From Lutjanus erythropterus (lineage: Eukaryota; Chordata; Actinopteri; Lutjaniformes; Lutjanidae), in contig CM034591.1 of the NCBI GenBank assembly GCA_020091685.1, forward strand, positions 12,968,833 through 13,032,832: a DNA stretch of 64,000 nucleotides, written 5' to 3'. Made by a program: the position numbers and the translations under genes. Below, in pieces: positions 30,359 to 36,746 of the stretch. The notes under the pieces are model-generated. The model searched no databases. It was not told where the DNA came from and worked only from the letters and a program-made list of their open reading frames with translations. Numbering within the stretch: position 1 is the first letter of the stretch; each line of letters starts with the position of its first letter.

Positions 30359-30873
30359 GCTTGCTCTTTAAATGTTGACAGGCCAGTGGTGGAGTATGTG
30401 AGCCTCACATTCATAGCTGAACAACAATGACAAAAACAAACGATGCATATGTTAGCAGGCAGAAATAATCTATAACAGAGTGCAATAATGTGGAAAAACC
30501 ATTTAACAAAGCTAGTGGTTGTTATTTAAAAGGTCAAACAGGAGTCTTTTTCAGACAAATGAGTTGAACTGAGTTGGGAGATATTGGGTATATTAATGTA
30601 AAATTAATATTGTGATGACACTGGATAATGTTTCAACAGTTTTATTGTGTGCATGGTAGGGGTCAACCAATTATCGGATCCCATATTCAGCAATTTACAA
30701 TGATCATGAATGAATCCGTTTTTTTTTTGTTTTTTTTTTAATCAAACTGCCAAGAAGTTGTAATTTACAAATGTGTTGCTTTGCCTCTGATGTAGCCACC
30801 TTTCTCTGTATGTTGTTACCATTCAGTGGTCTCACTCAACGTCACATCCATGACACTATCTGATTGGTTACGC

Positions 30874-31060
30874 CAGTGTTCCCCAACCCTGATCCTCAGG
30901 GCCCACTGTCCTGCATGTTTTAGATGTTTCCCTGCTCCAACACACCTGATTCACATGATCAGCTCGTCATCAAGCCCCTGCAGAAGGCTGACAACAACCT
31001 GATCATTTGAATCAGGTGTGCAGGACAGTGGGCCCTGAGGACCAGGGTTGGGGAACACTA
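30874..31060. mobile_element. hAT-like MITE with perfect 8-bp target duplication
   Basis: The element opens CAGTGTTCCCCAACCCTGAT and closes with its inverse, CAGGGTTGGGGAACACTA. The terminal inverted repeats extend about 41 bases with very few mismatches. It is flanked by GGTTACGC at 30866-30873 and again at 31061-31068. At 187 bases it cannot encode a transposase. The near-intact ends suggest a fairly young insertion. Confidence 0.9.
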
Positions 31061-31228
31061 GGTTACGCCACACAAGTAATACCCTATACTGGAGGCTGCT
31101 GTGCCACTGACAGGCAGTCAAGAGGAACAGGAGAATGCATTTGCTGACTGGAACAGCTCTGTTTAGCAAGCAGAGCTGTGATTCATAGGTAAGGGAGCAG
31201 ATTTTTCCCAAAGTTACAAACATCATAA

Positions 31229-31516: not shown

Positions 31517-32459
31517 TCACAATCCTCTACACTGAAGTTGCAAGAAAAAAAAAAAATACAATCAAACCACTTTGTTGCAGTGGCAATGTGATAATAGAAC
31601 TTATTTATGACACTAAGATTTTCAATTTTACTGCAAATACATACTTGTTGCAAATATCAGTTATAGTTTTACATAATAAATAAAGGAAACCTTTACTGCT
31701 ATTATTGTTTTTATTATGAAAATCATACAATTTTCAGAACTTATTTGATGGTTCAACAAATATGAAGTTATCAAAAATGTTCCATTTATATCCACAATTA
31801 CCCTAAATAATGATATTTTCTGACATCACGTTAGCTATCCCTAGATAATATGAAGGCATCAATATTTGCACTCATAAAACTGTCACAGTATGATTAGAGG
31901 TAAAATAAACTCATAATCAATGTTGTCACTATCGACCACTGAGACAACAGGAAATACAATAACTTTGAAGAGGGAGGGACTTGTTTTACCACAGCATTTG
32001 CCGAGATTCAGTTCACTCCATCTGCTGCTGATAAAGTCAGTAGACAAACTGTTGCCTGACACTTGTTACATATAGATTAATTCCTAATTTTGGAAAGTCT
32101 GCGTGACAAAACTAGTGAATGAATGACAGGCGAGCTAAACACATGTAATCACCCACAACTCAGTAAACAGCATCAAGAACAAAACATGCAGATTAACGCT
32201 ACATTGCACCTTTATGCGCAAATTTTCTCCTTAGCTCAATGACATCTGACTATAGACTACGTTATATACTATACATCTATCCACATTTACACACTGTAGC
32301 TGAAGTTACAGTAACATACAGTCAACATTACCTGATTCATGCTAGTGAAGCTAGCTCCTGTTAGCAAGCTTGCCATACGCTAAGCATCTGTAGCTTCGGC
32401 TACTAGCAAATCACACTGGCTAGTTAGATTAGCTAATGGCAAAATAATAAGAAAACGTT

Positions 32460-32660
32460 TTCTGGTGTGGTTTAAATGAGTTGCGAGCAACACGCTGTCC
32501 TGGTCACAGCACAAAAACGTGTCCACCGGTATGTAACGTGATGTCCAACCGCTTCAACGTCTTCTTCTACGCCGGAAATACTGTTCCGGAAAGAGTTCTT
32601 TTGCCAGTAACCCGTTGCTAAGCGACGAATTCTGAACGTGTGCTGTTGAGTAGGACTTCA
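32460..32660. promoter_or_regulatory. Likely bidirectional promoter of dtwd1 (-) and the FAM227B-like gene (+)
   Basis: Between the two genes lies a locally GC-richer stretch. It carries CCGGAA at 32572-32577 and the palindromic ETS site TTCCGGAA at 32584-32591. It also carries GTTGCTAAGCGAC at 32614-32626, which fits an RFX X-box (GTTRCC-spacer-RGYAAC) with about one or two mismatches. No TATA box is obvious. ETS pairs are usual at bidirectional housekeeping promoters, and an X-box would fit a ciliary or testis gene. The start sites themselves are inferred. Confidence 0.5.
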
Positions 32661-32667
32661 CCTGCCG

Positions 32668-32727
32668 ATGGTGGACGGTAGATGTACTGCTGAGAATGTA
32701 TTGATTTTAGATAAGATATCAAATATG
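32668..32727 (+). other. Candidate first coding exon of the FAM227B-like gene
   Basis: An ATG in good context (gccgATGg) opens 20 codons, MVDGRCTAENVLILDKISNM, ending at a donor ATG|gtagga. It lies about 40 bases after the X-box-like motif, on the expected strand. I cannot match the peptide to a known FAM227B N-terminus, so the call rests on position, start context and splice site only. Confidence 0.3.
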
Positions 32728-33707
32728 GTAGGAAGCTCGTTCCAAAAAGTTACTGTTAATTATACAAGCATATCGCGACGTTTAAGCTGATTTAAAGTTG
32801 GTTTTGTAGGTAAGTTGTGATAACATTTAAATTGGTTAAGTGACCGTCGTGGAAGTTTTCGGTCACCTATGCTAGCAAGTCTGGTGCCATTACGTAGCTA
32901 GCTGGCTGGGTTAATGTTATTCTAATGACAACTTTGCTCAAACAAATTTATTATTTAAATTATTAGTATGAAAAAAAACCCACATCTATCAATGTTAGCT
33001 TTTTTGGGGTGGTGGTGGTGGTGGTCTTGGTAATAAGAATCCCAGGTTTTGTCATGTAATAAAAATGCTGAAAAAATGTTACCTAGCTCTAGCATACCTT
33101 TGGCTATTTACCTGACAAAACTATCACGAGAATGAAGTTTCATATCTGTTTGTATCGGTAATAATATTGATAATATTGATCATTTAGGTTGTGACTTATG
33201 ACGTGTACTCCGGAGGGTGAAGGGTGATAACACGAGTTTGTTGTATTATCACTGGGCATTATAGACAAAATCAAAGGTCACAATATTTTTAGGAAAATAT
33301 CTCAGTATCAATATTGCAATATCAATATTGCAACAATAGTTTAGGGAAGACTGTTGGTGTTGATGTTGACAAAATATTAACCCAATGAGATTTTTTTAAT
33401 ACATAATCATCAGTGGTTATAGTAAGTGGGTAAAGGCGGAAAGTTAAAAAAAAAATCAGAAAATCACAAAACCAGGAAAAGACAAGACTTATGCCATATC
33501 ATGATATAACAATATCCAACATCTATCAGGATAACTATTCTTATATCACAATATGTTATAATTTTGATATGATGACCAGCCCTAAATTAGCTTGTGTTCT
33601 GGGATATATTTTCATTTATTGAAAGACACTATTCTTAAATAATTTTAAAAAACTTAAAAAAAAAGATTAAATTAACCTAAGCTTACTTAATTTTCCAAGG
33701 ATCTCTG

Positions 33708-34050: not shown

Positions 34051-35032
34051 TTTCTTTCCTCTCAAGTATTTTGTTTCAAATATTGTAAAAAGCTGATCAA
34101 TAAAACAAAACTTTTGAAGCATCTCTTTTAAGAGCTTTCACTCTGGACATTTTACAATGTTTTCACATTTTAACACACTCCCCTCCCCACAGAAAATATC
34201 TGCCTGTGAATGTTTAATGATATTGTTTTATCTTTGTTTTTTAATGAGCCACAGTACATAAAAGTCATGAAGTACATTAAAGCAGTCCTTAACCATCTGA
34301 CATTCTCCCCGCAAGCTACAACTGTTCAAGATTAACTTGAGTTAATTTACTTGAGCCTTTCTGGGAATCCCAGTCCTTTTATGATGGTACTTTTTGTAGT
34401 GTCATTTCTTGTTCTGTTGACACAATTCTGAATTAATGTTTTTCACTATAGCTTGGCTCCAGATGCCTGAATTGCTGTCCACAACCCAGATTTTTCAGGT
34501 TTTGAAATAATTTGAATGAAAATGAATACTGAAGTCAAATATAATAGTAATCAGTGTATTTATTATGATTTGTTTTCATTCTACTACAATGGAAATTTCA
34601 TTCTAATCTATGAAGCTGGTGCCATTTAAAGTCATGTTGCATCAGCAAAATTCAACAGATAATATTTCCCCACGATGGCTGATCAAAACCTGAAAGGTTA
34701 GTTGAGGGAAAACTAGTCAAAATTAATAATATGCATTTGTCTTGTTCAAAGCCAGATGTGCTTGGTGTGATGTAAAACAGATTGTTTTATATAAGATTTC
34801 AAAGATACCTGAGCTGTCACACTTTTTATGAGACAGACAATCGCATGCAGACTTGCATGGCAAACAGATGTGTATCGAATGAGACCTTCCGGTGTGATAT
34901 TAGATTCCAGATAATCAGAAATCTGCCAAATGTGCACTGTGTGCCAGGTAGCTTTCATCATCATGGCAGTGAACCATAGTTTATCAATATTGGTCATATT
35001 AATCACACCACTCTTACCTGTCAACCCTGTAG

Positions 35033-36275
35033 GCTGTGATGCTCAAGATCAAGGAGCCTGTCTTTGTGTCCTCTCTCTATAATATGGCGCCATGCTTAAA
35101 GACATCATCTGGTGGATCTTCCTTCACAGGTTCAAGGTGATTCTGCTGTCTAAAACCTAAGTGAATGTTTTAAATGTGCAGCTTTAGTTTCCATAGACAA
35201 CATTTCCTGATGATGTTTTGCTTTTGTCTCTTGGTCTTGGTCTGTTATTGCCTTTGGCATCAAATTGTCACATAGCGAGACACAACAATGTCACGGTTGG
35301 ATGCATCCATCTGCGTCAAATATGAACGAGTTGACTGTTCCTGACATGTCTTATCGTTTAAATTTATTTGTTGTCATTCAATGTTTAGTCTAACACAGGG
35401 GAAGGAAAAAACAAACTGTCTGACTGCATTTCAGCAGTGTTTTTCTTTCTGTTGACCAGAGCCAGACAGATATATCGGTCAGCTTATGTTGTCGGCCCGA
35501 TATTGACCTAGCACAGCTATCTTGGTCTATATTACTAAAAAAAATACTGTGTTGCCCAGTATTTTTTTTTGACAGAACATGAAGGAGGTTGTTTTTATTT
35601 TTATAGGCAGCATGTTATGTTTACTTGATTCTTTTTCTTAATTCAGTTTGTTCTATTTGTATTTTTTTTGTTTATAGATATTTACAGTTGGTGTCATTTT
35701 GGATTTTATATATGTATAAATAAAGAATATTGATACGTATATGTATCTCAATATATCAACATTGGAATTTTTTTTACTCCTTTATGTCTGCATCTTCCCC
35801 CACAAATCCATTATTGGTCAGGGTGTACTGTTGACAGCAGTCTAGATTAAAAGAAAATTCAAAGAAAACTGTTTCTGATAAATTTTGTTCATCTGTATTC
35901 CATGCTGTTGCCACTTCCATACAGTCAGAGAAATGAAAATAAAATATTTGAAATGTCTTTCAGGTGTATCCAAGCTGCTTGGCTCGAGTACTCAATATTG
36001 CATTTTATTGAGCATTCCCTGAATCAAAAGAGGGACTGGATAACAGTTGCAAGAGATGCATTTCAGACGTGGTGAACTTATGGATCTCAGGTAACCACAC
36101 TGATGATACTGCAATGCTACTCTGACTTTCCCTATCTGACATCGTGTGAGTTTTTGATCAGTTGCATGGTGTGCTCTTCAGGTGTGAAGCCCAAACTCTT
36201 CCTGGCAGAAGAGGAACCTCAGCTGGCTCACTACAACAGCTGGAGTGGAGTAGAGAGAGAGGAACCCTGCTTATG
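35033..36275 (+). pseudogene. fam227b: FAM227B-like gene (FWWh domain), three recognisable exons with disabling changes
   Basis: Exon A is 35033-35136. It begins in one frame (EPVFVSSLYNM) but its end, LKDIIWWIFLHRFK, the FWWh-domain hallmark, is in another frame after a one-base loss (or two-base gain) near 35085-35092; a TAA precedes it in that frame. Exon B is 35964-36090. It reads CLARVLNIAFY, a TGA at 36009-36011, then AFPESKEGLDNSC and DVVNLWISG, aligning with the family's SFCxxFPxS...WISG segment; the stop falls where I recall a Cys. Exon C is 36182-36275 and begins VKPKLFLAEEEPQLAHYNSW. Splice sites look intact (ctgtag/gtgatt, ctttcag/gtaacc, ttcag/gtgaga), and phases agree for B and C. 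A linker exon expected between A and B was not found, and exons after C were not identified. FAM227B's function is poorly known. Position and strand relative to dtwd1 and fgf7 match the human order. A sequence error or unusual splicing could also explain the lesions. Confidence 0.6.
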
Positions 36276-36746
36276 GTGAGAAATATGTTTTTGCACGCTA
36301 TGTGTCAAGATAACTTAACCCAGTGCAATTTGTAAAAGAAACACAGGGGAGGCATTTTCATAACTAAAATTTTAATCTTTATAATATAGGTACAGGCTTA
36401 TTGTGACACTGTGCTTGTTTTGGCACAAAAACAAAAGCCCTGTTGCTTTTTGAGACCGGTATTTCCATAGCTAGTGAACATCGATACTAAGTTATTATTG
36501 GTTATAGTAACAGTTAACTTGACAATGGCAGGGACAGTTACGGAACTGGATTTATTGTGTCATTCCAAGCGTGAGGTGTAGTCATCATCGCCACTGTAAC
36601 ATATAAGAGTTCGATTCTGTAGTGACACAGTCCCCTCAAGAGCATTCTTCACGTGTTTAAAATAGCTAGTATGACTTTTCAACTTGCACCTTTTACTGCT
36701 GTTTTAGGAAATGCAAAAGACACGTGTCCCCACTGGGGATAAAAAA

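Follow-up and report, generated by a model that had tools for sequence, protein, structure and literature searches.

Does the stretch of DNA between dtwd1 and fgf7 in Lutjanus erythropterus still encode a FAM227B protein, or has only a relic of the gene remained there? The window, i.e., the whole analysed stretch of 64,000 nucleotides (contig CM034591.1, positions 12,968,833 to 13,032,832), holds pieces of such a gene at 35033–36275, which the initial annotation described as broken by a frameshift and an in-frame TGA. It is very probable (about 0.92) that these pieces are the relic of FAM227B, a gene of the FWWh family, and represent a unitary pseudogene still lying where the gene originally stood, between dtwd1 and fgf7. 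As in known unitary pseudogenes, several disabling lesions are found in place, the neighbour is stop-free and the search revealed no other FWWh locus above the cut-off; the difference is that the relic is classed so from one genome alone. The intact ancestral FAM227B is assumed from the family profile.

The identity of the relic is provided by the Pfam FWWh family (PF14922), which matches the plus strand between dtwd1 and fgf7, across the TGA, with an E of 1.4e-8. The curated cut-off (25 bits) is exceeded by the stretch translated directly, with X for each stop (35.2 bits), in the whole-genome search (38.8 bits) and by the pieces joined by X (78.0 bits). As in FAM227B and FAM227A, the domain scores over the cut-off and is spread across exons, here together with a fragment between them, and the opposite strand carries DTW exons upstream and FGF7-like exons downstream. 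The relic differs from these genes in that no open frame runs through the domain and one exon is cut by a repeat. Columns about 36–144 of the full domain (columns 1–150) were found. Columns before about 36 were not convincingly recovered with ten upstream candidates (seven of them ending at donors chosen out of 24 listed), which gave 75.7–78.6 bits vs. 78.0; the match of the candidate with donor 34947 reaches column 10 at a gain of just 0.6 bit. Neither these candidates nor a scan of 36–63 kb, whose 24 top candidates contained nothing recognisable, revealed exons upstream of 35033 or downstream of 36275. No match of the relic to PDB was obtained.

The Pfam DTW domain is present in two minus-strand frames upstream (dtwd1), and the FGF domain in two minus-strand frames downstream; the best PDB match is FGF7 for one of the latter and an FGF7/FGF1 chimera, then FGF7, for the other. 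The relic is thereby flanked by dtwd1 and fgf7, which we take to be the neighbours of FAM227B, presumably in the human genome as well. NNT pieces around the relic were identified by Pfam (AlaDh_PNT_N, PNTB). Further features of the window include a minus-strand open frame of 230 aa (1068–1760), for which Pfam gave nothing at an E of 0.1 or below, and a long inverted repeat at about 30868–31071, recognised by eye, with arms of about 50 bases (near 30870–30920 and 31020–31070).

Three exons of the relic (35033–35136, 35964–36090 and 36182–36275) have GT/AG borders. In splice scoring, their acceptors reach 2.2, 1.5 and 2.9 and their donors 3.6, 3.8 and 4.6. For reference, the best acceptor near 11 of the 12 NNT pieces scores 2.1–11.4 and that near the twelfth −1.4, these values being the best in a range and therefore biased upward; the best donors near two of the 14 reference pieces score 0.2 and −1.5. 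The consensus splice sites claimed in the initial annotation are thus upheld as far as the reality of the three exons and their GT/AG borders is concerned, but their scores are weakish. Codon usage does not separate the frames of the exons.

The exon at 35033–35136 (plus strand) carries the hallmark IIWWIFLHRFK and corresponds to FWWh columns 43–60, scoring 13.5 bits alone, under the cut-off. As initially proposed, WWIFLHRFK does lie in a frame other than that in which its exon is open, and the exon is not open throughout in the WW frame, where TAA occurs at 35080–35082. The interpretation of this lesion as a frameshift is less certain, since a frame change is indistinguishable from an in-frame TAA. 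In the joined pieces, the WW-frame reading with X at the TAA yields 77.0 bits, the frame-change reading 75.9, 78.0, 77.1 and 73.3 bits for four junctions, and omission of the first half of the exon 75.1 bits; the first half therefore carries almost no signal. Under either reading a lesion is present, and Pfam has no power to choose between them. The 104-base open frame of this exon is weak evidence by itself, and the frame that keeps it open meets a TGA at 36073 in the next of the three exons.

The second lesion is found in the exon at 35964–36090 (plus strand), which matches FWWh columns 97–138 with 34.0 bits alone (X at the stop); the locus scores 38.8 bits in the whole-genome search. The TGA at 36009–36011 reported earlier is indeed in the frame in which this exon matches FWWh. 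The following exon, 36182–36275 (plus strand, VKPKLFLAEEEPQLAHYNSWSGVEREEPCL), gives no Pfam match alone; it is in phase with the preceding exon and free of stops in the corresponding frame, and when joined it extends the end of the FWWh match from column 138 to column 144. This open exon and the GT/AG borders kept by all three exons speak against a pseudogene, but the three exons joined contain stops in each of the three phases, and a further exon is disrupted by an insertion (see below), so no open frame of a functional gene was found. Skipping of the TGA exon could be considered a way around the stop: 35033–35136 joined to 36182–36275 has one open phase, but its translation lacks both the WW motif and the VKPK reading.

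Since TGA is also the selenocysteine codon, the gene could in principle be alive, with the TGA read as selenocysteine or passed by stop readthrough. Cysteine is the best of nine residues tried in the TGA column (36.0 bits vs. 34.0 for a blank), so the earlier suggestion that Cys formerly occupied this site is compatible with the profile. The preference is weak, 2.0 bits over the blank, and not special to the TGA, since the column before it also prefers Cys (36.8 bits vs. 34.0 with Tyr). The window contains no Rfam match at the gathering score, and none of the eight Rfam matches at E up to 5 in 35000–64000 is a SECIS element. Furthermore, recoding would leave both the hallmark exon and the insertion unexplained. 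Recoding, already considered unlikely in the initial annotation, is thus a practically negligible explanation.

The region 35137–35963, initially treated as a plain intron, contains the 5′ part of a missed exon (35389–35456, plus strand, SNTGEGKNKLSDCISAVFFFLL), cut by a repeat at 35457–35827. In the joined pieces the FWWh match consists of two stretches, the hallmark exon ending at column 60 and the second stretch beginning at column 94. Placed between the exons and followed by a blank tail, the missed-exon stretch yields 75.6 bits vs. 50.7 bits for all-blank filler, a gain of 24.9 bits. With repeat-coded residues after it, the stretch gave 75.1 bits in the joined protein; by comparison, six further stretches taken from this intron (24 were listed) gave 50.9, 47.4, 55.7, 54.8, 54.9 and 48.4 bits, and four shuffles (of six made) 60.6, 56.6, 53.7 and 66.1 bits. 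The blank-tail test is taken as the main evidence because both these 75.1 bits and the first gain observed, from 49.3 to 73.3 bits, included residues encoded by the repeat. No signal was detected for the exon tail after the insertion: the native tail at three lengths gave 75.8, 74.0 and 78.9 bits, compared with 78.7 bits for a repeat-coded tail, 72.7, 84.1 and 73.3 bits for shuffled ones and the 75.6 bits of the blank. Because donors in the reference set can also score low, weak donors after 35457 are no proof on their own.

The inserted element (35457–35827, plus strand) is 371 bases long and is recognised by its dispersed copies, its ends and a target-site duplication. The duplication CTGTTGAC is perfect (8/8), its left copy occupying 35449–35456 and its right copy 35828–35835, and it occurs nowhere else in 35000–36400. 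hAT elements make 8-base target duplications. A genome DNA search with 35382–35560, in which 40 of 161 candidates were scored, returned the locus itself and 39 other places that match the left part of the repeat, all starting at query positions 74–83 (35455–35464), 25 of them at position 77 (35458). The repeat ends in the window copy are CAGAGCC and GGTCAGGGTGTA, while most of 14 aligned related copies begin with TAGAGCC. A duplication with at most one mismatch was found beside a matching right end in five of 24 related copies, vs. 15 of 633 random 8-mers; the other 19 lacked it. The repeat belongs to an abundant dispersed family, with 695 first-look candidates in the genome, 40 of which were scored.

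Like hAT-type non-autonomous DNA repeats, the element combines an 8-base duplication, short imperfect inverted ends and many dispersed copies. It is too short to encode a transposase, and it differs from those repeats in having neither a matched transposase nor a named family, the label being derived from the ends and the duplication alone. Judged by these sequence features, an exon of the FAM227B relic is hit by an apparently hAT-like non-autonomous repeat.

Errors of assembly or base calling could make an intact gene look broken, and the TGA and the hallmark-exon lesion each could be a one-base event. The insertion cannot be explained in this way, since base-calling errors do not produce a 371-base repeat flanked by a perfect 8-base duplication. 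As a control, the genome search used for FWWh was applied to DTW: the adjoining dtwd1 domain exons and a second DTW locus gave four matches, all four stop-free, which favours both the sensitivity of the search and a sound assembly at the locus. An erroneous sequence is therefore very improbable. At least three independent lesions are present in about 393 bases of recognisable exon, namely, a hallmark exon with a broken WW frame, the TGA in the exon matching columns 97–138 and the hAT-like insertion in the exon between them. The earlier claim of a broken FAM227B-like gene is thus not only supported but strengthened by the insertion with its 8-base duplication and by the lack of a second FWWh locus.

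The search for a second copy covered the 938-Mb genome (444 contigs). At E up to 0.001 the FWWh profile gave one match, the relic locus; at E up to 10 it gave eight, of which only the relic locus exceeded the cut-off and the others reached at most 19.4 bits. Among the scored candidates, the relic was therefore the sole FWWh locus to exceed the cut-off, in a search which proceeds exon by exon, ignores introns and scored 10 candidates, so that a divergent FAM227A may escape it. A genome protein search gave four matches, all at the relic locus. The flanks 34900–35456 and 35835–36400 are single copy, the sole extra being a 45-base match to the latter elsewhere.

The strongest of the weaker matches, L048 (C13:36868030-36868122; 19.4 bits, E 0.47, columns 47–77), covers a WW-like stretch with stops nearby, at a distance of about 10 kb from a frame that, among the matches listed, was judged by eye to be BASP1-like; it was rejected as a second FWWh locus and is either a chance match or a very old relic. 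Chibby, which we take to be a neighbour of FAM227A, gave a single match, on C20. This match presumably represents a live gene and nevertheless holds a TAG; as the search ignores introns, a stop within a match is not proof of a dead gene, which is a point against reading the relic as dead from its stops. Outside the fish genome, no relatives of the relic were found in viral contigs, and the sole match in genome contigs, L001 (Clostridium, 31%), contains stops in its reading and lies in a frame other than that of the enclosing long bacterial open frame, so it was dismissed as chance.

The repeat offers an indirect estimate of the age of the loss. The initial annotation suggested a recent loss in this lineage, and a loss limited to Lutjanus erythropterus would fit two features, namely, the 34.0 bits still reached by a single exon and the lack of any mismatch in the target duplication. 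If an active repeat family had supplied the insertion recently, near-identical siblings would be expected. Among the scored copies (40 of 161 and 40 of 695 candidates) the best sibling has 72% identity over 225 bases, or 87–88% over 72–76 bases, and no copy is closely alike; the insertion therefore appears to be old, and the claim of recent loss is not sustained. Against the majority of the 14 copies, which were chosen for likeness to it, the window copy shows 6 differences in 77 bases; these copies themselves differ at 6–14 of 76–79 bases. A rare source copy may have escaped the scoring, and another lesion may have preceded the insertion. A recent loss confined to this species is accordingly unlikely, and the loss probably dates far back, perhaps by tens of millions of years at the rates assumed for fish.

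An old promoter could have outlived the protein. The stretch at 32401–32900, between dtwd1 and the relic, is rich in CpG, with observed/expected ratios of 1.09, 1.31 and 1.19 in 300-base windows starting at 32401, 32501 and 32601, vs. 0.91 and 0.99 in the adjoining windows and 0.26–0.69 in eight others. This peak is a candidate for the old promoter shared by dtwd1 and the relic, and it is the basis on which the kept promoter proposed in the initial annotation may be considered. An RFX X-box-like motif GTCGCTTAGCAAC lies inside it (32614–32626, minus strand), with one mismatch to the consensus; 4.8 such matches are expected in the window by chance, and this single one was not accepted as a signal. 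Given the CpG peak and the strong donor found at 32809, the locus might still produce a useful transcript, either non-coding or alternative. The peak could serve dtwd1 alone, and the above-mentioned lack of Rfam matches at the gathering score also weighs against this possibility, which is improbable on the present sequence.

The formation of the unitary pseudogene could have proceeded as follows. Selection on FAM227B would have relaxed while dtwd1 stayed intact. One lesion would have removed FAM227B function, and the others would then have built up neutrally, so that a functional protein with the FWWh domain would no longer be made from the locus. The loss is probably shared with related species.

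The loss of FAM227B is well supported but, as such, an ordinary gene loss; titles and the beginnings of abstracts among the literature matches listed contained no report of it. FAM227B is little studied, and its name does not occur in titles among the matches listed. No FAM227A exon scored over the cut-off, and it is conceivable, though doubtful, that this fish, and probably a wider group too, lost the whole FWWh family. For annotators, the relic serves as a warning, as loci of this kind may end up as spurious protein models once gene predictors have patched them. A dated natural knockout offers a comparative handle on FAM227B, allowing the traits of fish lacking the gene to be set against those of fish keeping it. 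If the whole FWWh family is indeed lost, a widely kept animal gene family would have proved dispensable.
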